A stretch of 23,487 nt of DNA from a virus. Positions 4,217 through 23,487 of the stretch are shown here, piece by piece. A model generated the notes under the pieces. The model had not been told where the DNA came from, did no database searches, and saw nothing but the letters and a program-made list of their open reading frames with translations. Position numbers and translations under genes: made by a program. Numbering within the stretch: position 1 is the stretch's first letter; the number at the start of each line of letters is the position of its first letter. The stretch spans positions 1-23,487 of the IMG/VR virus record IMGVR_UViG_3300025131_000444; one strand, given 5' to 3'.

Positions 4217-5302
4217 CTACAAAATCGGTATACCTTTGTCAAAACGAATCTCTTTTCCATCTCCAAATGATCTACCAACCTCTGCATCAATGGCAAGGGG
4301 TACATCAAAGTGAATGTTAAATATCTCCTTGATCGTCGGGTAGTTCACCATCTCATCATAGAGGATCTCAAGCACATTCTCAACCTCATTGTCTGGACAA
4401 ACTACCTCCACGCTATCATGAACTGTTGCAACGGGTCTAGCTGACAAGTTACTAGCTTTAAACCTTCTAGAGATACCCAACAAAGAAGTAAGCAGGATGT
4501 CAGATGCAGTACTCTGGATAGTAAAGTTAAGTCCTTGCCTAAGAGCGCGATTAACAACTGTCTTATTCCTAGAGCCAACATCAGGCAAATTCCTACGCCG
4601 ACCGAATATAGTATAAGCATAACCATTTGTTCTAATAAAATCATTCACAAACTCCATGTATTCAAATACCGCAGGGTACACATTCTTGTAGTTATCTATT
4701 ATTCTCTCTGCCCTTCTAAGTGGAATTCCCATAGTTTCACTTAAATTAAACGGTCCTCCACCATATACAATCAAGAAGGAGACTGTCTTGGCAATCTGTC
4801 TCTCAGTTTTACTAATGTTTTGTTTATTGAATAGTAACTTAGCAGTATAGGTATGTAGATCTGCTCCTTCATTAAAAGCGTTCTGCATATTACCGTCCTT
4901 AGCAACATGAGCAAGCACACGAAGCTCCATTGCGGCATAGTCTACAGCAATGAAAGACTGCTGGGGAGGAGCGGTAAAAATACTACGAATATTATCTTCA
5001 GTAGTACGGGGCAGAGTATGGAATGATACTCCCATAGCTTTCTTAGCATTATAAGAAGCACAAGACAATCGCCCCGTAGAAGTCCCATCAAATCTGAAGT
5101 CTACGAAGATCTTATTTTTTCCATTATACTCAATAGCTTTCCTAGTTCCCTGAATATAAGTCTTAGCTAGTTTCTCCGACTTACGGAGACCCAAGAGCCC
5201 TTTCAGGAATTTCTTAGAGTCTAGTAATTCTTCCGTAGACTTGGAGGCTACTACCCTCTTGCTAATTTGCTTACCTTCATCTCTGTGTTTCCATTTACTC
5301 AC
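4217..5302 (-). CDS. polA: Family A DNA polymerase, part 3: palm and fingers catalytic domain
   Basis: This 361-residue chain carries the polymerase active site. Motif A is AVDYAAMELRVLAH (Asp121, Glu126). The O-helix motif B, RQIAKTVSFLIVYGGG, keeps Arg168, Lys172, Phe176 and Tyr180-Gly181 in family A spacing. Motif C is ATVHDSVEV (His295, Asp296). The usual Glu after the motif C Asp is Ser297 here. The first 60 residues (KFLKGLLGLRKSEKLAKTYIQG) match the thumb that normally continues from the segment encoded by the preceding gene. The start is GTG, with GAGGA 11 bases upstream, and overlaps the end of part 2 by 8 bp in another frame. It must work with parts 1 and 2 to rebuild a whole enzyme, unless the frame break is a sequence error. 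Confidence 0.92.
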   Translation of the reverse strand: MSKWKHRDEGKQISKRVVASKSTEELLDSKKFLKGLLGLRKSEKLAKTYIQGTRKAIEYNGKNKIFVDFRFDGTSTGRLSCASYNAKKAMGVSFHTLPRTTEDNIRSIFTAPPQQSFIAVDYAAMELRVLAHVAKDGNMQNAFNEGADLHTYTAKLLFNKQNISKTERQIAKTVSFLIVYGGGPFNLSETMGIPLRRAERIIDNYKNVYPAVFEYMEFVNDFIRTNGYAYTIFGRRRNLPDVGSRNKTVVNRALRQGLNFTIQSTASDILLTSLLGISRRFKASNLSARPVATVHDSVEVVCPDNEVENVLEILYDEMVNYPTIKEIFNIHFDVPLAIDAEVGRSFGDGKEIRFDKGIPIL

Positions 5303-5774
5303 GGGACTTTAATTCCTCATCAATGTGTTCTAACAAAAGCTTCAGCGTAGGGGCAGACACAGAAGGACTTCCTTTAGCTGTCCTGTCAGGAGGGTACAAT
5401 TCTAAACTTCCTTCTCTGGTATATAGTATCTCAATCAAATCATGGTTGGAGGAGAGGTTGTCTGTCTTCTCAATGCCCTTACAAGAGTAAAGGGAGTCCT
5501 CTTCATTCATGTTCTTAGTAGTGAGTTCTCTCCCCACGCTCTCTAATGTTGATGTGTCCACATCCAATCCATTGTACTCCATCTCTGAAAAAGTCTCAAG
5601 AGAAGGCATTACAACTTTCTCTATTAGTTTGAACATCGGTTCTCCATCTAGCTTTTCGCAAATTAGATTGAATAGCTTTAAAGTGAAGTAGGAATCGAGA
5701 GCGTTCCCCTCACAACAGTCTGAAAGGGGCATGTTTGCCCAATCAAATTTTTTAGGATTGTCAATGGTCAGCAT
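5295..5774 (-). CDS. polA: Family A DNA polymerase, part 2: exonuclease motif III and thumb
   Basis: A 159-residue piece that fills the gap between parts 1 and 3. Residues 10-35 (FDWANMPLSDCCEGNALDSY and following FTLKLF) match the exonuclease III region of DEDD 3'-5' exonucleases, with Asp27 as the likely metal ligand. The Tyr or His usually found four residues before this Asp is Gly23. Residues 45-75 (LIEKVVMPSL, EMEYNGLDVD) match the start of the polymerase domain, and NLSSNHDLIEIL near 107-118 the thumb. It stops at TAA, where part 3 takes over one frame away. There is no obvious ribosome-binding site before the ATG; a minus-strand TATTAT box 14 bp upstream could be a promoter. Confidence 0.82.
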   Translation of the reverse strand: MLTIDNPKKFDWANMPLSDCCEGNALDSYFTLKLFNLICEKLDGEPMFKLIEKVVMPSLETFSEMEYNGLDVDTSTLESVGRELTTKNMNEEDSLYSCKGIEKTDNLSSNHDLIEILYTREGSLELYPPDRTAKGSPSVSAPTLKLLLEHIDEELKSRE

Positions 5775-5785
5775 AGCTATATAAT
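5758..5785 (+). promoter_or_regulatory. Sigma-70-type promoter for the inverted 92-residue gene
   Basis: TTGTCA at 5758-5763 and TATAAT at 5780-5785 are separated by 16 bp, close to the bacterial housekeeping consensus with a perfect -10. Transcription would begin near 5791, followed by AGAGG as ribosome-binding site and the ATG at 5804. The promoter overlaps the first codons of polymerase part 2 on the other strand. Confidence 0.6.
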
Positions 5786-5803
5786 AGACGAGTAGAGGTT
5801 ATT

Positions 5804-6082
5804 ATGAATGATAAAGATTACGAATTGATCGGTGAGTCCATTTGGGACACTTATAGAAACATGAGTTATATTTTAGCTGAAGGAATTTTGGGAAGGCTGA
5901 AGCGTAAAGTATTTGGAAGTGGAAAAGGAGCCGATACCGCTAAGAAATCAACTGCTCTTGAAGATACCCTCTCCAAACAAGGTAACCCTAAACCTAAAAA
6001 AACTAAAAAAGAAACGCCAGAAGAAAGAGCAGCCCGAATAGCTAGAGGCTTATCGGCTGCAGCGCAGTACGGTGACGCTTAA
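5804..6082 (+). CDS. Small basic protein with prohead-protease-like site, inserted inverted in the polymerase locus
   Basis: A 92-residue protein on the strand opposite the surrounding polymerase pieces. AGAGG lies 5 bases before the ATG and a good promoter just upstream. Residues 1-26 are mixed and end in SYILAE; the rest (GILGRLKRKVFG, then KPKKTKK and an Arg/Ala-rich tail) is strongly basic. The junction LAE followed by G matches the consensus cut site of the T4 gp21 prohead protease. Its layout (short leader, cut site, basic body) resembles T4 internal proteins, so I infer a packaged DNA-associated protein; there is no direct homology I can name. The stop codon overlaps that of polymerase part 1 in a shared TTAA. 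No HNH, GIY-YIG or LAGLIDADG motif is present, so a homing endonuclease is not supported. Confidence 0.7.
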   Translation: MNDKDYELIGESIWDTYRNMSYILAEGILGRLKRKVFGSGKGADTAKKSTALEDTLSKQGNPKPKKTKKETPEERAARIARGLSAAAQYGDA

Positions 6083-7101
6083 AGATCTTCTAGTTCAGAA
6101 GAGAAGTAAATCTTAACTAGATCCATCAAGCTCTTCGGAACATTCTCGTCAATAAAGTGGTGCATAATCTTAGTGTCCCATACATTCTTCGTATAGATTC
6201 CGTAGTTAATCAGGAACTTTAGATCGAATTTAGCATTGTGAAAGACCTTCCTGTTCTTAGGGTTCTCTAAGATACGCCGAAGAAGAACCCAAACCCTTGC
6301 GTAATCTGGTTCTCCCTTTCTAAAGGGACTATCTTTATGATCCAGAGGAAGTACCCAAGTATTATCTTGAGAAGCGAACGCTATAGTTTGGATGCTATCT
6401 GTAAGGAAGTTTAGTCCTGTAGTCTCAATGTCTATTGCTAAAGTCTCCTCACTCTCCTGCAAATTAGTTGCAAGCTCCTCCACATCTTCTATACGCATTA
6501 GCGTTTGGTAGGTAAAGTCCCCTTCAGCCTTTTTGCCAAGTACATATTTTTCATATGCATTTTGGATGTCCTTTTGGAATAGGAAACGGTGGCGAGGCTC
6601 CTTAATACAGGCATAAGGATGAAAAATAGGCACAACGATACAGCTATGCCCTCCAGTAGTGATATATTCATAAGATTTTCCTCTCTTGTTTGTGATGCCA
6701 CTCTTCTTGATCAGCATCTTCATGGCTAAGTTCCCACAAGGGAACACTAGTTTAGGCTTTACCTTATCAATGGTAGCCTCTAAGTGTACGCGACATATTT
6801 TCATATTGTCTGGGGTCATGTCTGCTTCTCTAGTATCAGGACATTTTACAGACGCTGCACATATAAAAGGCTCTTTATATGCTTCCTTTATTAGATTTAG
6901 TTCGGCCTTCAAGAATGGAAAGGTTCCTCCAAACTTATATTTAAGAGAGTCCGATAAAAAGAGTGCTGGACATTCATCCAACTGCTCATAATCCATGATA
7001 GAATTACAAGGTTTATTCTTAGAAAGGATAGTACACCCTTCACAAAGAGGATTCTCTCCCTTAAGTTTATGATCGGAATATAAATTATCTAAATCAAACA
7101 T
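6079..7101 (-). CDS. polA: Family A DNA polymerase, part 1: UDG-like domain and 3'-5' exonuclease motifs I and II
   Basis: A 340-residue chain. Residues 1-190 look like a family 4 uracil-DNA glycosylase: Cys20-x2-Cys23 and Cys87-x15-Cys103 have the spacing of that family's iron-sulfur ligands, and IFHPY at 159-163 recalls its second motif. The usual catalytic GEAPG loop is replaced by SDSLK, so glycosylase activity is doubtful. Residues 221-300 hold exonuclease motif I (AIDIETTGL, Asp224 and Glu226) and motif II (HNAKFDLKFL, Asn289 and Asp293). Motif III is missing and is found in part 2. Family 4 UDGs are known to resemble the N-terminus of phage SPO1 DNA polymerase, so parts 1-3 together rebuild an SPO1-type enzyme. 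The chain ends in the linker between motifs II and III. Confidence 0.88.
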   Translation of the reverse strand: MFDLDNLYSDHKLKGENPLCEGCTILSKNKPCNSIMDYEQLDECPALFLSDSLKYKFGGTFPFLKAELNLIKEAYKEPFICAASVKCPDTREADMTPDNMKICRVHLEATIDKVKPKLVFPCGNLAMKMLIKKSGITNKRGKSYEYITTGGHSCIVVPIFHPYACIKEPRHRFLFQKDIQNAYEKYVLGKKAEGDFTYQTLMRIEDVEELATNLQESEETLAIDIETTGLNFLTDSIQTIAFASQDNTWVLPLDHKDSPFRKGEPDYARVWVLLRRILENPKNRKVFHNAKFDLKFLINYGIYTKNVWDTKIMHHFIDENVPKSLMDLVKIYFSSELEDL

Positions 7102-7114
7102 ACTATGATAGGGT

Positions 7115-7465
7115 ATGAAAAATCATTACATCAACAACAAAGAATTTGAGCGTATCATTATATCATACCAGCAAGACCCAGAAAATTACGAGGAAGAGCT
7201 AGTTTCTTTATTTGATCTTCTGATTACGAACATAATAGAATCATTTAGATTCAAAGTTGACCCTGATGATGCGAAACAAGATTGCTTCGCTCTAGTCCTA
7301 AAGACGGTAAAGAATTTTAAACCTCGAAAAGGCACAGCATTTAATTACTTTACTACCATTGTAGTAAATAATCTAAAATTACTTTACACTAGAGAAAAGA
7401 AATACAAACAAAAGATCGAAAATTATATTGAAAAGTATAAAAACGATAACAATCAATCTTTATAG
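7115..7465 (+). CDS. gp55: Late-transcription sigma factor, gp55-like, short form
   Basis: A 116-residue protein. The start HYINNKEFERII resembles the T4 gp55 N-terminus (NYVNNKELLQAI), and the middle (DAKQDCFALVLKTVKNF, then AFNYFTTIVVNNLKLLY) looks like the core-binding and -10-recognition part of region 2 of sigma-70-like factors. It is shorter than T4 gp55 (185 residues), and the C-terminal portion that contacts the sliding clamp in T4 is not evident. It would direct host RNA polymerase to TATAAATA-type late promoters, and one perfect copy lies at 19052-19059. It is divergent from polymerase part 1 and its 3' end overlaps the next, convergent gene by 13 bp. The ribosome-binding site is weak (TAGGGT). 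Confidence 0.75.
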   Translation: MKNHYINNKEFERIIISYQQDPENYEEELVSLFDLLITNIIESFRFKVDPDDAKQDCFALVLKTVKNFKPRKGTAFNYFTTIVVNNLKLLYTREKKYKQKIENYIEKYKNDNNQSL

Positions 7466-8201: not shown

Positions 8202-8206
8202 TTTAC

Positions 8207-8220
8207 TATTATAGACTGAG
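8207..8220. promoter_or_regulatory. Divergent promoter element between 7782-8201 and 8230-8742
   Basis: The 28 bp between the two divergent genes hold TATTATAGACTGAG on the plus strand; the complementary strand reads CTCAGTCTATAATA, giving a perfect TATAAT toward the minus-strand gene. No good -35 box is visible either way. The same TAGACTGAG string recurs at 11706-11714, and TAGACGAG at 5785-5792. Confidence 0.4.
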
Positions 8221-8229
8221 GATTACAAT

Positions 8230-8742
8230 ATGGAAGACAATTATGATTTTTCTAAGCTAAAAAAGAAAAAGAAGGTTAACAGTAGAGCTAAGGGCAGCAC
8301 CTTTGAACGGCAGATAGCCAAGCTACTTAATAATAGATTCAACACCACAGAATTTTCAAGAACTCCTGGATCTGGTGCATTCGCCACTACGCATACTCTA
8401 CCTGACTACTTAAAAATATATGGAGATCTAATAACACCTATTAAATTTAAATATTGTATAGAGTGTAAAAAAGGATACAATAAGGAAAACTTATATAGTC
8501 TATATAATTATAGTTCAGACACCTGGAAATTTATAGATCAATGTCAAAAAGATTCGGACAAGTGCGACAAGATTCCGATGGTCATCTTCAAGCAGGATAG
8601 ACACCCTACACTAGCTATAGTACCCTCAAATATCCCCTATCAAGCCACTAACTTCATAGAAATATATAAAGAGGGGAAAGTATATAGAGTATATTTATTT
8701 GATGATCTACTTAAAGAAGCTGACTCATGCTGGTTGGAGTAA
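8230..8742 (+). CDS. PD-(D/E)XK nuclease, possibly Holliday-junction-resolvase-like
   Basis: A 170-residue protein with the nuclease core motifs in order: KGSTFERQIAKLL (Glu26), FSRTPGSGA near 42-50, YGDLI (Asp66) and CIECKKGY (Glu78, Lys80). A basic N-terminus (KKKKK) may help DNA contact. The pattern of an early helix Glu, RTPGSG, GD and ExK is typical of Hjc/RecU-like resolvases and related endonucleases; which substrate it cuts cannot be told. TGAGGA about 9 bases before the ATG is a good ribosome-binding site. It is transcribed against its neighbours, and its last 32 bp overlap the end of the 982-residue gene tail to tail. It could process recombination intermediates made by gp46/gp47. 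Confidence 0.75.
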   Translation: MEDNYDFSKLKKKKKVNSRAKGSTFERQIAKLLNNRFNTTEFSRTPGSGAFATTHTLPDYLKIYGDLITPIKFKYCIECKKGYNKENLYSLYNYSSDTWKFIDQCQKDSDKCDKIPMVIFKQDRHPTLAIVPSNIPYQATNFIEIYKEGKVYRVYLFDDLLKEADSCWLE

Positions 8743-11659
8743 GTAATCTCTCTAATAATCTTTGTTGTCCTGCTAAGAACTGAAATAAAAGACCTTCCTC
8801 TTTCACAATAATTTCCCCTCTTTTATCTGTTACGAAATTTCTCTTTGGGGATGAAACATATTCATCTGCGAATTTAGCTTGAGATCTAGTTTGGCGTTGC
8901 TGACTCTCAGTTCCTTTAGTTCCTGACCAAGTACCTTCTTGGCTCCAAGTCATTACTTTTTGCCCATCTACTATATAAGTGGCTGTATCGCCTTCTATAC
9001 TTATCTCTAATCTAGGATTCCCATCTTTATCTATAGCTCCTCGCGCATCTGCTATAGCTCTCATAGGCTCATTTTGAGACCAGCCAATAACTTTACCATC
9101 ATTGGTCCCCTTAATTTGAGCCATCTCAGATTCATTGTACCCACATATTAGTAAATTTCTAATAAGGTAGTTCTCAACCATATCTTTTTTATTTGGATCA
9201 TTTAAATCTCTTTTTAATGCCCGAAATCTAGCTTCTCTTTCCATGCCTTCTTGAACTCTTTCTTGGACTACTCTATCAGAATACTTTCTACTCTTCCCAT
9301 TAATAAAAAATAGCTTAGCAAATTTACTTTTCATCAGTGCGGCCCAGCTTAATTTTCCAGTAATAATTTCACTAGCCATTTTTAAGTGTTGTTCAGGCGT
9401 AGCAATTTTGACTTTTCCGTTTTTATCTACATAGGTTGTAGTTTCTGCAAACCCAGCAGTTGCATGAGAAACTTCCGTTTCTAATTCATCATTATACTGT
9501 AACATTGCTGCAAAATCTGAATCTTCAACTCCATTTTCATCTACTTCAGGACCGAATCCTTGTACTTCTCTTATTCCAGTAAAGAATCCTGGGGTAGGGT
9601 CAGTAGAATCTTGTCTGAAGTATCCATCTCGTACAGCCTCAGTATTAATTTCCCCTGCTTTAGTATTGCCAGCCTTCTCCATCCTCTTTTGACCGAAGGG
9701 CATAAGGTAGACTTGTTGCCCTGGTTTTATATTTAAATCATCCAATCTCTTTTGTACCGAAATTTTAGATTTTGGTGTAGCATTATTAATGATATCGTCG
9801 TAAGTTGTAGGTTGTACCGAAGATCGACTATCTTTGGCAGCCACAGCAGCCTGATCTGGATCTATAAATAAAAGAGCATTATCTGCCCTTGCTCCAGTAC
9901 GAGGCTGTAGTCCTAGGTGGACTGTACCTACTACTCCCTCAATACTTCCTAGCCATTGATCCATAGCCTTTGCTTCCGACAGTATCCAAATTTTTAGTTT
10001 TTCTCTGCTTGTAGCTATACCATACATCTCAGCAGCTTGTTCTGCATCCATGTAAGATTGCATATCTACTGATCCTCCTCGCTCTAAGGAATTATTCATT
10101 ATCTGTTCAAGCATAGGAGTGTCCTTTTCAAGAATAGTTTCTTGAATAAACTCTGTTAGCTCTTGATGGATCTTTTGGTATTTTGTATCTTTTGTATCTC
10201 CGTTTGCAGCATCATAGGCTTCTCTCATTCTTCGAAGTAAAATAGATATTTGGGGGACTCTCTCATAAAGAGTACCTTTGATAGCATTCTTATCATTCTG
10301 TCCAATAGATAGATTTAATACTTGTCTAAGAGGACTAACCTCATCTCCTTTTTCCCCACTAGCAATGTCTGGGGTCCAGTCCGTGTCTGGGCACTCTGAT
10401 CTTAATTTTTCTAAAGCAAATCTCTGAAGGGGGTTTGGAGTAATAACTACTCCCTCAGAAGGAATGCTAGTATCCGCTCCCATCTCCCCAAAGAATATTA
10501 ATTTTTCCTTACTTCCTCTTCCATGTAATCCTACCCTAGTTAGAATTGTCTCACACCTATCTGCCTCTGCCTCCGAAGCAGGAGCTAAAAAACTTAGAAG
10601 TTGTGAATTAGCTTCTACCGCTTCCGATCTTAATCCAGCACTTATTTTACACTTACCTGCTGTATCTATTTTTCCTTTATCATCTAGACAAAAAGTACTA
10701 TCCCCATTAGCAAGTTTATATTCTAAACTTCCAACTGTAGATCCTGCAATATAACTGATTGGATTTTTACAAATATTATCCCATTGTGCTTTTAAATTAT
10801 CATTCTCGGAAGAATTTATTTGGTCTCTACAAAAACTGTCCACAAATTTCATTTGTTGTAAGTACTCTGATTCTTCAGTATGAGATACAGCGGGGTTATT
10901 AGTTTTTAGAGATGCATCATATTCTTCTTGTGCTATTCCTTGTGCTGCGAGGAGTGTTTGAGTATGGTTTAAGGTAGCATTCTTCTCCCCCCTCCCTTCT
11001 ACTTGTACAGCAATAGATTCTCCATCTACCATCCAACCATCGTCTTCTATTTCCTTTACTCTATTAAGTCTCCAAGCCCCCCCAATTTCTGCTGCGGCTT
11101 TTGCCTCAAAGTCTGCGATGGCTTGTTGTTCTTCTCTCTTTCTTTTAGTGGCCTCATCCTCACTATCTGGATCACTACCCCCTTCTCCATCTCCTGATAG
11201 CTTTTCAATAAAATCCTGCTTTCGTCCTGCTGCTTTCTGTACATCTTTATCGTATTTTGCTTGGGCAGTTTCAGTAACCTTTCCAGCCGCAGTAAGTTTT
11301 GGGCTACCTCCCATTTGTACAGTCCCCTTCCCGCTTTTCTCTCCACCGTATAAATTTACTACAACTACATCCCCTTGGGGGTTTCTATAAATAGACATCT
11401 CCGTAGGCTTTCCATTTACACCCATTACTGGAACAGCGTCTGCTGTGGCTGCATTAATCGCATTATTTGCTATAGTCGCCCCATCCTCAAAGGCAAGATC
11501 ACTTGGGGGTGGAGGTGTCTCCTCTTGTGTCTCCTTCTTCTTGGCTTTTGGTTTAGCTTTTGGTTTAGCTTTAGCTTCAGCCTCACTAATATATTCCAGC
11601 TTAAAAGTCCTCTTTTTAAGCTTATTGTAGCTTTCTAATAACTCATTAAAATAGTCCAT
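8711..11659 (-). CDS. Large virion-associated protein candidate, 982 residues, unknown function
   Basis: I do not recognise this protein. The first 26 residues (MDYFNELLESYNKLKKRTFK, then LEYISE) are followed by AEAKAKPKAKPKAKKK, a lysine-alanine-proline repeat. ISE followed by A matches the T4 prohead-protease consensus, so the N-terminus may be a capsid-targeting peptide removed at maturation. Residues 130-200 are charged and probably helical; no membrane segment, nuclease or peptidase motif stands out. The C-terminus is hydrophobic and helical (FQFLAGQQRLLERLL). It follows the tail genes after a strong terminator, with candidate promoter boxes in the 80-bp gap; AGGG about 12 bases before the ATG is a poor ribosome-binding site. 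A large internal or ejected protein is my best guess. Confidence 0.75.
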   Translation of the reverse strand: MDYFNELLESYNKLKKRTFKLEYISEAEAKAKPKAKPKAKKKETQEETPPPPSDLAFEDGATIANNAINAATADAVPVMGVNGKPTEMSIYRNPQGDVVVVNLYGGEKSGKGTVQMGGSPKLTAAGKVTETAQAKYDKDVQKAAGRKQDFIEKLSGDGEGGSDPDSEDEATKRKREEQQAIADFEAKAAAEIGGAWRLNRVKEIEDDGWMVDGESIAVQVEGRGEKNATLNHTQTLLAAQGIAQEEYDASLKTNNPAVSHTEESEYLQQMKFVDSFCRDQINSSENDNLKAQWDNICKNPISYIAGSTVGSLEYKLANGDSTFCLDDKGKIDTAGKCKISAGLRSEAVEANSQLLSFLAPASEAEADRCETILTRVGLHGRGSKEKLIFFGEMGADTSIPSEGVVITPNPLQRFALEKLRSECPDTDWTPDIASGEKGDEVSPLRQVLNLSIGQNDKNAIKGTLYERVPQISILLRRMREAYDAANGDTKDTKYQKIHQELTEFIQETILEKDTPMLEQIMNNSLERGGSVDMQSYMDAEQAAEMYGIATSREKLKIWILSEAKAMDQWLGSIEGVVGTVHLGLQPRTGARADNALLFIDPDQAAVAAKDSRSSVQPTTYDDIINNATPKSKISVQKRLDDLNIKPGQQVYLMPFGQKRMEKAGNTKAGEINTEAVRDGYFRQDSTDPTPGFFTGIREVQGFGPEVDENGVEDSDFAAMLQYNDELETEVSHATAGFAETTTYVDKNGKVKIATPEQHLKMASEIITGKLSWAALMKSKFAKLFFINGKSRKYSDRVVQERVQEGMEREARFRALKRDLNDPNKKDMVENYLIRNLLICGYNESEMAQIKGTNDGKVIGWSQNEPMRAIADARGAIDKDGNPRLEISIEGDTATYIVDGQKVMTWSQEGTWSGTKGTESQQRQTRSQAKFADEYVSSPKRNFVTDKRGEIIVKEEGLLFQFLAGQQRLLERLLTPTSMSQLL
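11541..11582 (-). repeat. 12-bp coding repeat for the Ala-Lys-Pro-Lys tract
   Basis: Near-perfect tandem copies, read on the plus strand as GGTTTAGCTTTT, encode AKAKPKAKPKAKK at residues 28-41 of the 982-residue protein. Slippage could change its length. It directly follows the predicted protease site. Confidence 0.75.
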
Positions 11660-11676
11660 ATTATATTATAGCCCTA

Positions 11677-11719
11677 AGAAAAATTAGGCCCAGCCCATTT
11701 ATATATAGACTGAGCCTAA
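11677..11719 (-). terminator. Intrinsic terminator after the tail tube gene
   Basis: Read on the minus strand, TTAGGCTCAGTC pairs with GGCTGGGCCTAA in a 12-bp stem with two G-U pairs (arms at 11708-11719 and 11684-11695), followed directly by TTTTTCTT. On the plus strand the two wobble pairs become C-A mismatches, so it favours minus-strand transcription. It would end the gp13-to-gp19 transcript before the 982-residue gene. Confidence 0.8.
11696..11703 (-). promoter_or_regulatory. Candidate late promoter (7/8 match) before the 982-residue gene
   Basis: TATAAATG on the minus strand, one base from the T4 late promoter TATAAATA. It lies in the loop of the terminator hairpin 37 bp before the start codon. 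A TATAATATAAT run just before the ATG is an alternative -10. Weak evidence alone. Confidence 0.3.
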
Positions 11720-11739: not shown

Positions 11740-12330
11740 TCAGGGGTTAGAGTAGTTGAACTGATTCATGAAATCGTACTTGAAGGTCACATCTATAGTG
11801 TGGAAATCGTTGGTTGCATAGTTAAATTCAGATGCTGCCCACTTAGTAGGCCAAACGCCATAAACTTCTACAGTAGAGTGAGGCACCATAGTATTATCAA
11901 GCATAACAATTTCAGCCTTTGCAGCCTTAAAGGTGTTTCCTAACCCCCCTCCAGGCTGAGAACTCTTACTCATTTCACCAGTAATGGGATCGTAGGTATG
12001 CTTAAAGTATCTCCATAGATCACTAGCAGTTTCTCTAAGATACAAGTTATCAAAAGTAACTACTAAGTCTCCAGGAGTAACCTTGCCAGGATAGTGGATC
12101 TTGTCATTAACTCTATCAATTACGATGGGCTCTGAAGCCATCTCCAACCCAGTAATCTTTTTAGCAGCAAGGGTGAGGTCTGTTTCTCCAGTTACATCAG
12201 AAGGTAATCCCAAAAAGTGAATTTCAAACTGATATGTTCTAACTGAATCTAAATCAGTAGAAATTAGGGGTAGACCCTGACCAGGAGTGAAGTTTCTCCC
12301 GTAATAATTTTTATAATATGATTGCGCCAT
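11740..12330 (-). CDS. gp19: Tail tube protein, gp19-like
   Basis: A 196-residue protein that would stack as rings to form the inner tube of the contractile tail. Supporting features are RTYQFEIHFLGLP near residues 31-43, the ITGLEMASEPIVIDR segment, a KIHYPGKVTPGDLVVTFDNL stretch typical of T4-like tube subunits, and a C-terminal KYDFMNQFNYSNP. Slightly longer than T4 gp19 (163). It begins 10 bp after the sheath gene stops, with AGGAAATTAATT as ribosome-binding site, which is the usual sheath-tube gene order. A terminator follows. Confidence 0.88.
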   Translation of the reverse strand: MAQSYYKNYYGRNFTPGQGLPLISTDLDSVRTYQFEIHFLGLPSDVTGETDLTLAAKKITGLEMASEPIVIDRVNDKIHYPGKVTPGDLVVTFDNLYLRETASDLWRYFKHTYDPITGEMSKSSQPGGGLGNTFKAAKAEIVMLDNTMVPHSTVEVYGVWPTKWAASEFNYATNDFHTIDVTFKYDFMNQFNYSNP

Positions 12331-12340
12331 AATTAATTTC

Positions 12341-14539
12341 CTATATGTTTCCTAAATTAGCCGACTGATTAGTAAGATTAATTTCGAAGATAATCATTTC
12401 TGCCGTCTTAGTAGGCTTGACAATAACTTTACACCAAAGTTCGTTTCTATCAATTCTTACTGGAGTATTTACTGTCGCATCACAAACAACACGGAATTCT
12501 GTTATCCCGCGCCGTCTACGAATGTCGTCCATGAAAGGATTGATCAAAGCTTCTATTTGAGACCAAGTAAATTCATCGTTGGGCTCAAACACAAATCTTC
12601 TTGCACTAGAGACGATAACTTTACGGATGTAAATCATCAATCTACGAATGTTAATTCTGTCTAGAGCAGTGGGGTTCCTTTGTGCAGTACGCTGCCCAAA
12701 GATAGTTATACCTTGTTGTGGGAAGGACACGATGGGATTAACCACATTGCCTCCACTATACATGGTATCTCTATCGCCCTGGTTCAGTTTGACTTCTACC
12801 TCCGAAGGCTTAGTGAGTCTACCTCTACGGAATCCCGCAGGAGCAAACCAGCTATCCGAAACACCGTCAGTATATGCCATTTGTCTGGCCCCAAAGATTG
12901 CAGGATCTAACCATCTATCCTTAGCATCAAACACGCTGTAGACCTTAACATGGGGGAAGTAGATCGCTGCATAAGAGCTAGTAATTGCTGAAGTTCTAGA
13001 CCCTGCTGTGCTAGAAGACTTTCCATTAGTCCAATCAATAGCATCTTGTACAGTTCCAATTCCATAGGGGGGAGAAACCAAAGCCATAAAGTTTTGAGTA
13101 CTCTCTGCCAAAGTTATCAGGTTATTCTGAACACTTTCCGTGTAAATACCTGGGACAGCTACGATTCCAATGTTAAGAACATCATCATCAAGTGATTGCA
13201 TTCCCGTCTTGGGATCAACAGAAGAATCTCCAATAAGGGCTGTGGTATTGGCAGCAGTACTTCCTGTTCCATTATCACCACCAGTCATACTCTCACCAGT
13301 ATTTTGAACTAACTTATTCCACCTACCACCATTTGTTGCAATAGTAGTATTTGCAGTAGCAGTACCTGCTCCTGTTGGATTGTCGTTTGGAAGTAAGAAC
13401 TGATCCGTCATCTGGAAACTGGTCGTTCCCATCAGGGTATTAGTTGCAACATCAAAATTAGTTAATTCCGCAGCCGTAGCGTCAGCATCATCTTTGAATA
13501 AGTTACCCTTAATAGTATCAGATTTAAGGTTAGTTTCTCCAGTGTTAATTACATCTTCAATAAAGGCACCTGATCCAACAAAGCTCGTTTTAAATGTTTC
13601 ATCAGCCACACCATCTTGATTAACTACAACACTAAAGTTTTGACTTCCTAGACCATTAACTGTAATGGAATTTCCACTAGTATCTCCACCAGTAGTAGTG
13701 CCTCCATTATAACCAGCCCCCTCATACAAGGAAACTATACTATATGCGGCAGAGTTCGTTCCAGTTTTCTCAAAAGAGGCACCGTAAGCCCTACAAGCAG
13801 AAGCTAAAACCCCTGCTCCAAGCTCTCCACTAGCACCATAACTTGCGCCAGTCGATCCTGCTGCACTTACAGGGCACAATGCTGAAGCTCCTTTAGATTC
13901 ATCAAAAGAAGTGCCACTACAAGCGGAAACCCCTATGTAAGCACCAGAACCAGCAAAGGCTCCTACGATAGCTCCAGACAATCCCAATCCCGCGTAGCCA
14001 TCTCCTCCATCAAAAACGCCCACTTTATCTGCGTCTAATCCTCCACCAACAATCTTTCTAATAGCTTCCGCTTGACCAGAAACTGCGGTACTTGTGGGGA
14101 TGGTAAAGTCTTTTCCTGGTGCGGTAAATTGGGCAGTACCTGCATTATCATATACTTGAATCCTAAGAGTTAAAGCAGCATCAAGTCCCCATCCTTTAGT
14201 TGCATCAGAGCCTCCTGAAACAATTATGGAGGGGCAAGTTCCCATAGTCATTGTAGCAGAGGCATCGGCAGCGGTAGAGGTTACAGCACGAATGAAATAC
14301 AGCGTGTTCGTTTGCTCTAAAATTTCTAATGCGCCTTCCAATGCTTGGCCTGGAATAGACTCATAAGGCTTACCGAAGGTACGAACCAAGCTGTTTTGGT
14401 TAGTAATAAGAGTAGCTTTGTTCGTTGGTCCTTTGCTGGCAAAGCCAACCAAACCAACGATTGAAGTATTAATTGACGGAGTATAATCCGAAATATCTTT
14501 TTCTATGGTGTAGACACCTGGGCTTACATAATTAGGCAT
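12341..14539 (-). CDS. gp18: Contractile tail sheath protein, gp18-like
   Basis: A 732-residue sheath subunit. The N-terminus (YVSPGVYTIEKDISDYTPSI, then SIVGLVGFASKGP) is diagnostic of T4-type sheaths, as is the C-terminal domain (INPFMDDIRRRRGITEFRVV, DRNELWCKVIVKPTKTAEMI). The conserved handle domain starts near residue 470 (LVSPPYGIGTVQDAIDW). Between roughly 100 and 460 lies a long low-complexity Gly/Ser/Thr/Ala-rich region that is poorly conserved in the family and probably faces outward; it makes this protein longer than T4 gp18 (659). AGGAG lies 8 bases before the ATG. The tube gene follows immediately. Confidence 0.95.
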   Translation of the reverse strand: MPNYVSPGVYTIEKDISDYTPSINTSIVGLVGFASKGPTNKATLITNQNSLVRTFGKPYESIPGQALEGALEILEQTNTLYFIRAVTSTAADASATMTMGTCPSIIVSGGSDATKGWGLDAALTLRIQVYDNAGTAQFTAPGKDFTIPTSTAVSGQAEAIRKIVGGGLDADKVGVFDGGDGYAGLGLSGAIVGAFAGSGAYIGVSACSGTSFDESKGASALCPVSAAGSTGASYGASGELGAGVLASACRAYGASFEKTGTNSAAYSIVSLYEGAGYNGGTTTGGDTSGNSITVNGLGSQNFSVVVNQDGVADETFKTSFVGSGAFIEDVINTGETNLKSDTIKGNLFKDDADATAAELTNFDVATNTLMGTTSFQMTDQFLLPNDNPTGAGTATANTTIATNGGRWNKLVQNTGESMTGGDNGTGSTAANTTALIGDSSVDPKTGMQSLDDDVLNIGIVAVPGIYTESVQNNLITLAESTQNFMALVSPPYGIGTVQDAIDWTNGKSSSTAGSRTSAITSSYAAIYFPHVKVYSVFDAKDRWLDPAIFGARQMAYTDGVSDSWFAPAGFRRGRLTKPSEVEVKLNQGDRDTMYSGGNVVNPIVSFPQQGITIFGQRTAQRNPTALDRINIRRLMIYIRKVIVSSARRFVFEPNDEFTWSQIEALINPFMDDIRRRRGITEFRVVCDATVNTPVRIDRNELWCKVIVKPTKTAEMIIFEINLTNQSANLGNI

Positions 14540-17321: not shown

Positions 17322-17975
17322 CTAATCGTCTTTTTGTAGTCTCTTTAAATTTGCTGCTGCCTTTTTAGATCCACTACCAGCAGCTACGGATGCTAATGCT
17401 ATATCTTTCTTTTTTTTGTCGTCATTAGCTTTCTGTTCTGCTCGGCTCCTTCTTTTCTTAATCCCCCTTACGGTTGCATCCCTAGACTCAGCAGTTGTAG
17501 GATTGCGCCTAAATTTATTTGGTTCTCGACCATATCTGCTTTCTGCTAATTTTCTTACATAAGCGTTAGAGCTTCTAGGCTCTTCATCCTCAACTCTTAA
17601 AGCTTCGGCTAGAACATATCCTAGTCTGTGATATTCAGTGCTGTCCTTTAGAGCTTTCTTCGCTCTTTTTGATCCACTACTAGCGGCTACTTGAGCTAAT
17701 ACTCTCTTCCTAGTTCCTGGCTTTGATCCTTGTAATTTCCTTCTCTTTCTAGTAGTAGCCCTTTTCAGGTTCCTCTTTAGTCTTGCCTTGTCCCAAAATT
17801 CCTTGTCTGGATAATCCCCTCCTCTAGCCGCTTCAGCATCCTTTTCGGAGTGGTGAGGTCCTCCCGCTTCTCGTTCCCGCTCATCACTAGCCACACTTTC
17901 GGGCTCCTCTGTGCTGTACAGGCTCGGATGGCTGCGTTTAGCCTCATTCAACTTTCTTTTTTTAAAATTTTTCAT
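17322..17975 (-). CDS. Basic internal-protein-like protein with prohead-protease sites
   Basis: A 217-residue, very Lys/Arg-rich protein. It begins MKNFKKRKLNE followed by A, close in form to the T4 internal-protein targeting peptide MKTYQEFITE followed by A, where the prohead protease cuts. Another consensus site, LAE followed by A, lies at 122-125 inside STEYHRLGYVLAEALR. A 19-residue module repeats: VLAQVAASSGSKRAKKALK (92-110) and ALASVAAGSGSKKAAANLK (193-211), 12 of 19 identical. No enzyme motif is visible. The gene sits between gp13 and gp14, 9 bp and 3 bp away. I infer a DNA-binding protein packaged in the head, cut into peptides at maturation; no specific homologue is recognised. Confidence 0.7.
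   Translation of the reverse strand: MKNFKKRKLNEAKRSHPSLYSTEEPESVASDEREREAGGPHHSEKDAEAARGGDYPDKEFWDKARLKRNLKRATTRKRRKLQGSKPGTRKRVLAQVAASSGSKRAKKALKDSTEYHRLGYVLAEALRVEDEEPRSSNAYVRKLAESRYGREPNKFRRNPTTAESRDATVRGIKKRRSRAEQKANDDKKKKDIALASVAAGSGSKKAAANLKRLQKDD
17343..17399 (-). repeat. Second copy of the internal SGSK module
   Basis: Codes residues 193-211 of the basic protein. It is 12/19 identical in protein to the copy at 17646-17702 and visibly similar in DNA (GATCCACTAC and GCTAC shared on the plus strand), so it is probably an internal duplication. Confidence 0.6.
17646..17702 (-). repeat. First copy of the internal SGSK module
   Basis: Codes residues 92-110 of the basic protein and directly precedes its STEYHR peptide. 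Partner of 17343-17399. Confidence 0.6.
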
Positions 17976-19148: not shown

Positions 19149-20825
19149 TCAGTCACCCGCAGTTCCCAGGTTCGTCGTATTCTGAGCGAACGGTGAGAAC
19201 AGGTAGTTACTCGTAGGACCAATAATACGCACGATTCTATAGAATCGGTTGTACGGTTCAATAGTAACTTTACCGTAGCGAGTTAAGATACCCTTCCTGG
19301 GCTGGAAGGTCTCTGGGTCAACAATGGTAGGCAGTTGCTGGAGAGGGATATAGGGGCAATAGCAATACCCAGAATCCATCGCATTAGCACCTTTGTAACC
19401 GACGAGAATTTCATCCGTAGGATACATCGGATCAACATACAGGTCGTAGCGACCCATAAACTTGCCTTTATACTCAATAGAGTTTCTACCAATATTGGTA
19501 GGACCATCAGCAGGTTGCACACCACCCTCAAGCTTCGAAGCACTCTCTAAGAGAGAAGCAACGAGAGGAGAGGTGAGGAGCCAATTACCAGGACCACGCA
19601 TAGTGGTGCGGTAAATATCTTGCGAAGCGAGGTTAATAATCGCCAGCAAGTTAGCATACACTTCGCCAACATGACGAGGATAAAGGCTAAGAGAAGACTG
19701 ACTAAAATCAATCACGAAAACATTAGAGGCTTGCTTCGTAGCACCAAGCGCAGTATCTGTTCCCGTACCTTGGGCTCCATTGAAGTCGTAAGTAAACTGA
19801 GCAGGAACAAACTGAGTTGCTCCAGCAGCACTATCCAAGCCAGGGAATACTCCATTACCTCTGTTACCAAGATCAATGTAATCATTGTCAGTTAATCTCA
19901 GATCAACACCACCTTCGTTCGTCTTGTGACGACCGTAAGCAATCATGCGAAGATCTTCAATGAGTTCACGGTCGATCTCAAGCTGAAGTTCCTTCGAAAG
20001 AAGATCCGTAAGCTCACGCTCAAGATCAAGGTTGTGATAAGCCTTAAGGTCTTGAGAAGCCTCAAGAGTCCAAAGGGCTCTCATCTTACGAGTGTTAGCC
20101 ACAACAGCTTCCTGCTCGATGTGGAAGGTCATTTCAGGAATACCCGTACCACTCAGACGCTCACCACCAGATAGGTTATAACCCATCACAGCATTAGCGT
20201 TGGGGAAGGCAGCAATTTGACCACCCATCGTCCCAGAGCCAGCACCAGTACCAAAGAAGGGCTCACTACCACTCGGGCCAGCAGCCAGAACATTGGACAC
20301 ATCGAAACCGCTTTGAGCTTGATCGCCGTCAAGACCATTGGAAGTTCCTCGCGTACCAGTAACACCGAAAGTACCGGGCCATCCAGCGTTAGCATCTCCT
20401 TGGGTTCCAAGGGCACCAGCAGACACAGAACCAATATCAGAAGCAGTCAGACCTCTGTAGGTCAGGTTGAACTTGCTGTAGACAGTTTGAATGTCAGTAC
20501 CAGAAGCACGGTCGTTACCCAGATAAAAGACCTGAGAAACAGGTCCCTGCATGGGCTGAACGCCAACCAGTTGGTTAGCTAAAAGTTTCGGGTAAACCCG
20601 ACGAACTAAGGGAAACGCAAATTTTTGGAAAGTTCCGAGTTGACCAGTTGTAGTGGTCGCAGCGGAAATAGCCTCATTCATGTTAAGTTTATCTTCAACG
20701 ATTGATTTAGCTTGGTTTTCAAGAAGTTGTGCAGTCACTCTACGGGTATAGTCATTATCAATACCCTCAAGCACAGGCTCCCACTTCTGGACAAGCGTAT
20801 CATCAGTTTGATGCATTACATCCAT
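19149..20825 (-). CDS. gp23: Major capsid protein, gp23-like
   Basis: A 558-residue capsid subunit. LVQKWEPVLEGI near the start, RRVYPKLLANQLVGVQPMQG and VSQVFYLGNDRA near 75-105 match the T4 gp23 N-domain (KWKPLLEG, RRAIPNLIAFDICGVQPM). The C-terminal region (VGYKGANAMDSGYCYCPYIP, then TRYGKVTIEPYNRFYRIV) matches gp23's end. A prohead-protease site, MNE at 49-51 followed by A, would release a propeptide as in T4, where cleavage follows residue 65. AAGGA lies 10 bases before the ATG, and the scaffold gene ends just upstream. A hairpin follows the stop. Confidence 0.96.
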   Translation of the reverse strand: MDVMHQTDDTLVQKWEPVLEGIDNDYTRRVTAQLLENQAKSIVEDKLNMNEAISAATTTTGQLGTFQKFAFPLVRRVYPKLLANQLVGVQPMQGPVSQVFYLGNDRASGTDIQTVYSKFNLTYRGLTASDIGSVSAGALGTQGDANAGWPGTFGVTGTRGTSNGLDGDQAQSGFDVSNVLAAGPSGSEPFFGTGAGSGTMGGQIAAFPNANAVMGYNLSGGERLSGTGIPEMTFHIEQEAVVANTRKMRALWTLEASQDLKAYHNLDLERELTDLLSKELQLEIDRELIEDLRMIAYGRHKTNEGGVDLRLTDNDYIDLGNRGNGVFPGLDSAAGATQFVPAQFTYDFNGAQGTGTDTALGATKQASNVFVIDFSQSSLSLYPRHVGEVYANLLAIINLASQDIYRTTMRGPGNWLLTSPLVASLLESASKLEGGVQPADGPTNIGRNSIEYKGKFMGRYDLYVDPMYPTDEILVGYKGANAMDSGYCYCPYIPLQQLPTIVDPETFQPRKGILTRYGKVTIEPYNRFYRIVRIIGPTSNYLFSPFAQNTTNLGTAGD

Positions 20826-21932: not shown

Positions 21933-23487
21933 TTACTGTAGTATTTCTGCTAATAAAGATCCGAATCTGTGGTATTCAGTAGAAGTTAGTTGTAATTGAG
22001 CGCGTCTTTGCTGTCCAAGCTTACCTGGAGTCTGTCTTCCTGCTTTAGGTCTTGGACCTCCTCCTTCGTCGGGAGAAGCTCCAGATTTCGAACCATATTT
22101 CCTCATGTGAGCTTGCGTTTTCAATCTATCCGCATAGTCTGGGCTAACTCTTGCCGTTGACCTTTCCCCAGAACTGCTTGGTACAGGTTTTTTAACACCT
22201 CTGGCTGCAACATGTGCTGATCTATCAGCACTAGCAGCAGCAATCCCTCCTCCTTTTAGACCTTGACCATGCCGTTGGCCTGATCTACCACCAGCAGCGA
22301 CCTTCTTGAGAACATCTGGGTCTCTCTTACTTGCACCTCTTCCTAATTGTAGTGGTTTTTTATCTGGAACTACTTCGGCTTCCACCTCCCTAGGAGGTTG
22401 TTTACCCGCAGGAAGTTGAGGCTGCCCTGGATGAGGAGCCCCGTTTCTTCTCTGGTCTGGTTGCTCTTCCCTATGTTCTGCTGGAACTTTCGGAGGTGTT
22501 TTCGATGGACGAGAACCATCCCCTCCTTTATCTCTTGGTCCAACACTAACTCCAGGTCTATCTCCTTGTGCTTCAGCACTAGGCTTCCCACCAGCCACCC
22601 CACCCTTTTTGGTTTCAAGCTCTCCTGCTCCAGGACCGTGCCTTGTAACCTTAAGTGAAGCCATAGCTCTTTTTCTCTGTCCAGGCTCAAATTCCTTATT
22701 TCTAGCTGCTGTTCTTCTAGCCTCGGCCTTTTCCTCATCTCCTTGTGCAAGCCCGGATTGACGGCGTTTTTCTGTGTCAAGAATATCTTTCACCTCTAGA
22801 TTTTCTTTCCTCTTATCCATATACTTTTCACCAACAGCTTCTTTTGCCGCTTTACCGAATCTCTTAATAGCCTGACCAGTCCCTGTAGCTGCATCAACTG
22901 CGGTTCCATGCACCTTGGACTTAAGCCTTTCTGTCTTGTCCCGCCTTACTTCTCTATGACCTCTACGGGTATCTGCCGCAGCTTCATCATCGGCTCTCCT
23001 AATCTTTCTCCTAGATACATCATCTTCCCTTGATTGCTCTCCAGCATGCTTCCTACTCGCCCTACCTTCCTCTCCAGCAGCGGTAACATCTAAAGCTCTT
23101 TCTGTTCCTTTAGCCTCAATTTCCTCAGTACCCTTCTTTCGGAAGCCAAGAGTTTTCCAAGATCTGCCTCCAGATTTAATTTTAGCTGCCTTCCGATTAC
23201 CCTTCTCAGTTTCAATTTTTTCTTGCGCGGCAGCCATACCTTTTGCTGCACCTCCAGCCGCTCCTTTAATCTTAGTGGCCTTACCTTCAGCCTCTGCTTC
23301 TCGCTCAACAGTACCTTTCCACTTCCTGAATCTGGTTTCACCAGTCCTCTGCTGTGTATCCTTAAGATCTTGTTTTCTACTAGCGGCTCTTGTTTTCTTA
23401 ATTCTTCGCGTATCTTCTTTGGTTTTATACTTCTCAAATCTCTTCGCTGTTCTTAGAGTGGATCTATGGTGCTTCCGTAATCCTCGT
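21933..23487 (-). CDS. Long Lys/Arg-rich protein, N-terminus beyond the window, C-terminal STEYHR motif
   Basis: The reading frame is open past the ATG at 23237 up to the right edge with the same basic character (KWKGTVEREAEAEGKATKIK, then GAAGGAAKG), so the real start lies outside and at least 518 residues are visible. It is rich in Arg, Lys, Glu, Gly and Ala with no hydrophobic core, and appears disordered. It ends in TSTEYHRFGSLLAEILQ, nearly the same peptide as in the gene at 17322-17975. The stop is one base before the next ATG. It lies upstream of the scaffold gene, in the head cluster. I infer a DNA-associated head protein; nothing enzymatic is visible and I do not recognise a family. 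Confidence 0.75.
   Translation of the reverse strand, partial: RGLRKHHRSTLRTAKRFEKYKTKEDTRRIKKTRAASRKQDLKDTQQRTGETRFRKWKGTVEREAEAEGKATKIKGAAGGAAKGMAAAQEKIETEKGNRKAAKIKSGGRSWKTLGFRKKGTEEIEAKGTERALDVTAAGEEGRASRKHAGEQSREDDVSRRKIRRADDEAAADTRRGHREVRRDKTERLKSKVHGTAVDAATGTGQAIKRFGKAAKEAVGEKYMDKRKENLEVKDILDTEKRRQSGLAQGDEEKAEARRTAARNKEFEPGQRKRAMASLKVTRHGPGAGELETKKGGVAGGKPSAEAQGDRPGVSVGPRDKGGDGSRPSKTPPKVPAEHREEQPDQRRNGAPHPGQPQLPAGKQPPREVEAEVVPDKKPLQLGRGASKRDPDVLKKVAAGGRSGQRHGQGLKGGGIAAASADRSAHVAARGVKKPVPSSSGERSTARVSPDYADRLKTQAHMRKYGSKSGASPDEGGGPRPKAGRQTPGKLGQQRRAQLQLTSTEYHRFGSLLAEILQ

Follow-up and report, generated by a model that had tools for sequence, protein, structure and literature searches.

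What is the function of the large open reading frame (ORF) at positions 8711-11659, on the minus strand, of the viral DNA stretch IMGVR_UViG_3300025131_000444 (the window, 23,487 nucleotides analysed as a whole)? The ORF starts with ATG, has 982 codons and takes up 12.6% of the window, in line with the eighth estimated in a previous reading of the letters alone (the sequence-only reading). That reading placed the protein in no recognised family, and this is borne out: no family of Pfam or NCBIfam passes its curated cut-off, PHROGs and PADLOC give weak matches only, and the sequences of solved structures contain no sequence match beyond weak single-member hits. The explanation favoured here, with a probability of about 0.6 for its parts taken jointly, is that the product is a nuclease that would be packaged in the phage head, trimmed, ejected and would then cut DNA in the infected cell. 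It is very likely, judging from the N-terminal sequence, that the protein is targeted to the head, and probable that its core is a nuclease. Such a protein would be new in joining two features that are each known already, and not a new kind.

The ORF is not a chance one, because its comparison with an 83% identical copy (L002) gives a ratio of nonsynonymous to synonymous substitution rates (dN/dS) of 0.435 over 380 N-terminal codons and because a family of homologues exists. A direct search with the window gene found only a 99% and an 83% identical copy. A search with the sheath gene led to 80 loci, three of which had no detected tail tube gene and 11 of which were on contigs that end too soon. 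In 65 of the remaining 66, testable, loci an ORF with the same leader is found directly downstream of the tail tube gene. This constant upstream neighbour is gp19-like in the window and occupies 11740-12330 on the minus strand (profile matches and the locus survey). In the only exception, L079, the body of the protein is kept and about 70 bases around the leader differ, perhaps owing to an assembly fault. Two further scans added members to the family. The full-length proteins are mostly 770-1,070 residues long and belong to marine T4-like phages; the alignments exclude the shorter L058 (633 residues) and L088 (331 residues), as well as members truncated by the end of a contig. Identity in the body of the protein drops to 20-30%.

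Other searches yielded little. Neither the window protein nor two relatives nor the leader gave a tblastn match in 50,697 phage records, and PHROG 10171 and 4359 match three members at the leader end and nowhere else (E 2e-5 to 9e-4). A search of genome contigs with query A1 gave no confirmed match. These negative contig searches are not proof of absence, because a divergent relative was found there later by way of the ribonucleotide reductase (RNR) gene. The relative is on the 130,604-base contig QCKN01000003.1 (L219, L223-L229), filed in the Prochlorococcus single-cell genome AG-409-P03, and the contig is syntenic with the window phage (RNR 85%, gp23 56%). Prochlorococcus is not claimed as the host: only this one of 400 genomes of the family matched, and no psbA, hli or plastocyanin gene was found on the contig.

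The best conserved part of the protein is its N terminus. Residues 1-26 (MDYFNELLESYNKLKKRTFKLEYISE; 11582-11659, minus strand; leader alignment) form a capsid-targeting-like leader with a candidate prohead-protease cleavage site after E26. All 46 distinct leaders, which were collected by tblastn with the window protein so that very different leaders would escape, have I or L at position 24 and E at position 26. M1, Y3, L7, S10, L14, K15, R17 and E26 are invariant among them, and the sequence is free from residue 27 on. In a set of 51 representatives, collected with a pattern that already required the final E of the leader, the mean frequency of the most common residue is 0.85 in residues 1-26 compared to 0.31 in residues 27-982. 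The leader is conserved as protein and not as DNA, because the third codon positions vary most (0.36, compared to 0.15 and 0.10 at the others). The leader of the divergent AG-409-P03 relative reads ...NITLDE, likewise an (L)xE ending. The candidate targeting peptide of the sequence-only reading is real and conserved over relatives. The Lys-Ala-Pro repeat mentioned along with it is present, but its importance is not supported: it belongs to an unconserved Lys/Ala/Pro-rich linker (residues 27-55; 11495-11581, minus strand; ORF translation), and its KPKAK sequence is private to one of the 51 representatives.

In the parts of the T4 literature drawn on here, gp21 is described as cutting after L/I-X-E (PMC9026906), leaders target the internal proteins (PMC9026906, PMC3012670), and the first ten residues of IPIII are enough for packaging (PMC9026906). 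The T-even internal proteins are described as highly diverse, with only the targeting sequence conserved (PMC3012670). By this analogy, residues 1-26 would be a T4-type capsid-targeting leader. The prohead protease family PF03420 is above its cut-off in 11 of 16 gene-bearing records (the window, itself a fragment, is among the five that lack it), and a prohead protease gene is also present on the AG-409-P03 contig. Together, the (I/L)xE leader, the position among late head and tail genes and the protease support the proposal of the sequence-only reading that this is a virion protein with a targeting peptide. At the other end of the protein, the model and the alignment contain a conserved C-terminal helix, GQxxLLExLL (residues 957-973; 8741-8791, minus strand), whose Q..[LI].E is found in 41 of the 51 representatives and whose LLE970 also fits (I/L)xE. 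A second cut, at E970, is possible because T4 Alt is trimmed at both ends, the C terminus included (PMC9026906, in the part consulted).

As a separate observation, three charged proteins of the window were seen, by reading, to have in common a module of the type [DE]Y..[LF]G..[IL]LAE that comes together with a candidate (I/L)xE cut. It is N-terminal in the product of 5804-6082 (plus strand), internal in that of 17322-17975 (minus) and C-terminal in that of 21933-23486 (minus). These may be other head-core proteins.

The evidence for a nuclease comes from invariant residues and from a predicted fold. The residues that are invariant in the alignments are C369, C423, E466, G589, D593, K658, G669 and R808. 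Three of them, each conserved in 51 of 51 representatives, are proposed to be catalytic: E466 in KGxxxE (10262-10264), D593 in TGxRxD just before a strand (9881-9883) and K658 in GQK near the end of a strand (9686-9688), all on the minus strand. They had been singled out as a candidate PD-(D/E)XK triad when neither a model nor a fold search yet existed. The model of the full-length window protein is mediocre, with a predicted local distance difference test (pLDDT) score of 70.9, whereas the core of a compact member, L095 (51 sequences), was modelled well (pLDDT 87.8, predicted template modelling score 0.85). The top match of this core in the PDB, as found by VIA-align, is the restriction enzyme HinP1I (2fkc_A), with Z 9.2 and a root-mean-square deviation of 4.3 over 214 of 247 residues; the next row has Z 6.1, and its match is limited to helices. 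The corresponding segment of the window protein, residues 440-945 (8825-10342, minus strand), is therefore described here as a nuclease-like core with a predicted HinP1I-like fold, on the model of the relative's equivalent segment.

In the L095 model, E26 (equivalent to E466) is in the first helix, D138 (D593) is just before a strand and K175 (K658) is at the end of a later strand. As a general rule, E, D and K in the order helix, strand and strand is the order of the PD-(D/E)XK active site. Nine aligned relatives of HinP1I have GxxxE, GYK(A/S)D, QVK and KxG in this order, with exceptions, and by eye this order parallels KGxxxE, TGxRxD, GQK and KxG of the window family. Lysine is mostly preceded directly by Q in the window family; two positions before it, the HinP1I homologues have Q in seven cases and S in two of the nine. 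The active-site residues of EcoRI and EcoRV are given in PMC4081073, and HinP1I is described there as working as a monomer (the source was consulted in part). A scan of 386 genomes from the cyanobacterial phylum found relatives of HinP1I in 13. In several such genomes, of 1.7-2.1 Mb, HinP1I-type restriction genes (L230-L237) stand beside ORFs that, by reading, are methylase-like.

Several results weigh against a packaged HinP1I-type nuclease. The full-length window model gave no useful PDB match, HinP1I not being among the rows listed. The best Z that VIA-align usually returns for models without a clear Foldseek match is 7-8, compared to which 9.2 is modestly higher, and the match on its own is suggestive. 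Profile-profile comparison gives no significant match between the window family and the HinP1I family (probability 0.3% and 0.2%; P 0.21 in a repeat), even though its best segments line up the C-terminal ends of the two families in the order that would be expected. The PF11463 (R-HINP1I) family model matched none of four records at E 10. The proposed equivalence of the triad with the HinP1I residues follows their order and not a printed residue-by-residue superposition. Most of the superfamily has an acidic residue two positions before the lysine, where the window family has G, A or S. Finally, a search of five sequences for the leader pattern yielded a single ORF in each, unlike in T4, where several proteins carry it.

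One structural match was followed up and put aside. A 378-residue protein of phage S-RIM8 that matched the full-length model (E 3e-3) does not reappear in the rows displayed for the core model, four S-RIM8 proteins were inspected and set aside, and 155 kb of the 171 kb S-RIM8 genome contain no match to the family by profile. The first viral row among the structural matches of the core model is the nameless A0A7D7JQW9 (E 8e-6).

The explanation favoured here would proceed as follows. The phage is a deeply branching marine T4-like virus, and the 982-residue product would be one of its internal head proteins. The 26-residue leader would bring it into the scaffold core, where the prohead protease would cut after E26 and perhaps also at E970. 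The mature protein would stay in the head and be ejected with the genome. Its core would be a HinP1I-type PD-(D/E)XK nuclease, with E466, D593 and K658 in the active site, which would act early in infection by cutting DNA inside the cell, the chromosome of the host or a competing element being the most likely target. The suggestion of the sequence-only reading that the protein is an injected effector is plausible in this light, given the nuclease-like appearance of the modelled core. What had been named there as a refutation, an unambiguous match to an enzyme known from outside virions, applies in part only: a fold match to a restriction enzyme was obtained, but the leader points to the virion.

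Among the alternatives, the one that fares best, although still unlikely, is that the protein is internal to the head and has a nuclease-derived fold that no longer cuts, so that it would bind or organise DNA, or block a host defence as T4 IPI does. The leader and the gene position speak for such a protein as well, the absence of an acidic residue two positions before the lysine would be natural for it, and IPI is a precedent, being a packaged inhibitor of a restriction enzyme (PMC3012670, in the part consulted). However, E466, D593 and K658 are invariant in all representatives despite an identity of 20-30% elsewhere, as catalysis would predict. It is doubtful to a slightly greater degree that the packaged protein has some other, unrecognised core fold and matches HinP1I by chance. 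The non-significant profile comparison and a Z that is not decisive are what this alternative would lead one to expect, but the match covers most of the target chain, lies three Z units above the next row and involves a triad that had been proposed beforehand.

A more specific version of the nuclease hypothesis is that the head carries a sequence-specific, restriction-type endonuclease that is ejected against host or rival DNA, while the phage genome is spared for want of the target site. This is improbable, and its self-sparing part is unsupported. It was considered because short palindromes are missing from these phages. ACGT does not occur in the window (36 expected) or in two larger relatives, G020:C3 (168 expected) and G004 (84 expected), and CCGG does not occur in G020:C3 and G002. 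Five sequences were compared for 4-mers that are wholly missing despite at least ten expected occurrences: in four of them such gaps concern ACGT and CCGG alone, and the fifth, G001, has no such gap. In a survey of 113 loci, near-duplicates included, ACGT is missing in 29 of 112 and CCGG in 47 of 101 loci with at least five expected occurrences, compared to one of 78 for CGCG and none for GCGC, TCGA and seven other palindromes. The missing sites were nevertheless rejected as evidence of the target of the nuclease, since controls share the gaps. Among controls without a detected homologue, CCGG is at zero in S-RIM8 (139 expected) and in stretches of S-PM2 (15), P-SSM2 (14) and AG-345-O18 (16), and TCGA is at zero in HTVC008M (28 expected), whereas KVP40 and P-SSP7 have no such gap; the six controls besides S-RIM8 are stretches of 30-49 kb, outside of which the gene could sit. 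Nor do the labels favour the nuclease tree over the sheath tree by more than a little. On trees of 85 loci, ACGT labels (83 loci labelled) change 12 times on the nuclease tree and 13 times on the sheath tree (shuffled means 21.6-21.7), and CCGG labels (77 loci labelled) change 14 and 17 times, respectively (shuffled means 25.3-25.4). The gaps are more likely due to host restriction, because controls without a detected copy of the gene lack CCGG or TCGA as strictly and because several 6-base palindromes are also missing. Complete gaps of one or other of these kinds (ACGT, CCGG or several 6-base palindromes) were seen in the window, G020:C3, G001, G002, G004 and S-RIM8.

It is quite improbable that the product is a late cytoplasmic nuclease for DNA processing or packaging that is not kept in the virion and uses the leader only to dock on the assembling head. 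A second nuclease-like ORF (PDDEXK_15) does adjoin the gene, but a protease motif closes the leader and marks the point beyond which conservation is lost, as would fit its removal within the prohead. The virion RNA polymerase (vRNAP) also envisaged in the sequence-only reading, for which only the size and the probable virion location speak, is not supported and very improbable, as no polymerase family is above the curated cut-off in any library searched, the single weak PHROG match named DNA polymerase I concerns one of 23 members (E 0.051), and two N4 vRNAP rows (Z 4.5-4.6, 71 residues) are short and stand among unrelated helical rows.

Seen as a whole, the ORF (ORF list and family alignments) consists of the leader, the linker, a variable region, a Cys region, the nuclease-like core and the C-terminal helix. 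The variable N-terminal region (residues 56-260; 10880-11494, minus strand) was delimited from the alignment and the model, in which it mostly has low confidence. Residues 365-423 (10391-10567, minus strand) are a small region, predicted to be alpha/beta, that contains the invariant C369 and C423.

The sequence-only reading described the gene as alone behind a strong terminator. A terminator-like hairpin of 15 pairs was found by hairpin search after the tail tube gene, upstream of the ORF (11684-11719, minus strand), and relatives have similar hairpins by eye. The word 'alone' is nearly accurate, except that the gene shares 32 bases at its 3' end with a convergent ORF (8230-8742, plus strand). 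Between the hairpin and the start codon, the upstream alignment contains a promoter-like sequence, CTATAATA (11664-11671, minus strand), which starts 12 nucleotides before the ATG and is accompanied by no Shine-Dalgarno-like sequence. All 39 distinct upstream sequences contain CTATNAT within 25 bases of the start codon, with a match starting at -12 in 37, and no Shine-Dalgarno-like word occurs in the last 20 bases of any of the 39. This pattern suggests that the promoter abuts the start codon and that the message would be leaderless or nearly so. CTATWATA occurs five times in the window (3.45 expected by chance), always just upstream of an ORF start and in the right direction; positions are 11664-11671, 8206-8214, 5780-5787 and 1507-1514, and three matches end about five bases before an ATG. 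The ORF at 7115-7465 (plus strand) encodes a sigma-70 region 2-like protein (E 2e-4, below the Pfam cut-off), a candidate late sigma factor, which might read the CTATNAT promoter.

The neighbours of the gene are T4-type late genes, encoding a gp18-like tail sheath (12341-14539, minus strand; profile match), the gp19-like tube, a gp15-like sheath stabiliser and a gp23-like major capsid protein (19149-20825, minus strand; profile and phage-collection matches), which marks the T4-type setting. The best matches of the capsid protein in the phage collection are only 29-34% identical and are mostly from cyanophages; therefore, the phage branches deeply within the T4-like group. The convergent ORF at 8230-8742 is a PDDEXK_15 or RusA-like nuclease gene (E 4e-27). 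Further along, an apparent pol A-type polymerase is split over ORFs 4217-5302, 5295-5774 and 6079-7101 (minus strand), its polymerase part being assigned by reading; the first of these ORFs has a uracil-DNA-glycosylase-like domain and a 3'-5' exonuclease.

The window protein resembles T4 IPI, IPII, IPIII and Alt, as described in the parts consulted of PMC9026906 and PMC3012670, in having an N-terminal leader that ends in (I/L)xE before a very divergent mature protein. Its leader has 26 residues and not ten, however, and its body is far larger than that of an IP and matches none of them. The likeness to HinP1I (PF11463, PDB 2fkc) consists of the fold predicted for the L095 core, the E-D-K order and nearby glycines. 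Significant sequence similarity to HinP1I is absent, and the window family has a long helical insertion between E and D, as well as the extra Cys region, leader and C-terminal helix. In engineered T4 heads a leader fusion is reported to send EcoRI or staphylococcal nuclease into the head (PMC9026906, PMC3012670, in part), whereas the window case would be natural; searches of an open-licence library, a minority of them aimed at this question, listed no natural head-packaged HinP1I-like nuclease. Polyvalent and other injected phage proteins are likewise large and made up of multiple regions, and their entry into the cell along with the DNA is predicted (PMC5512222, in the part consulted), but no common domain was recognised in the window protein, and its route would be that of the T4-type head.

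Nearly all members of a group of uncultivated marine T4-like phages have this large gene, and these results assign it a likely function. If the proposed explanation is true, the protein would be the natural counterpart of the nucleases that were sent into T4 heads by engineering, and the question of what these phages deliver when infection begins would become directly testable. The leader can also be used to search metagenomes for further proteins that are packaged in heads.

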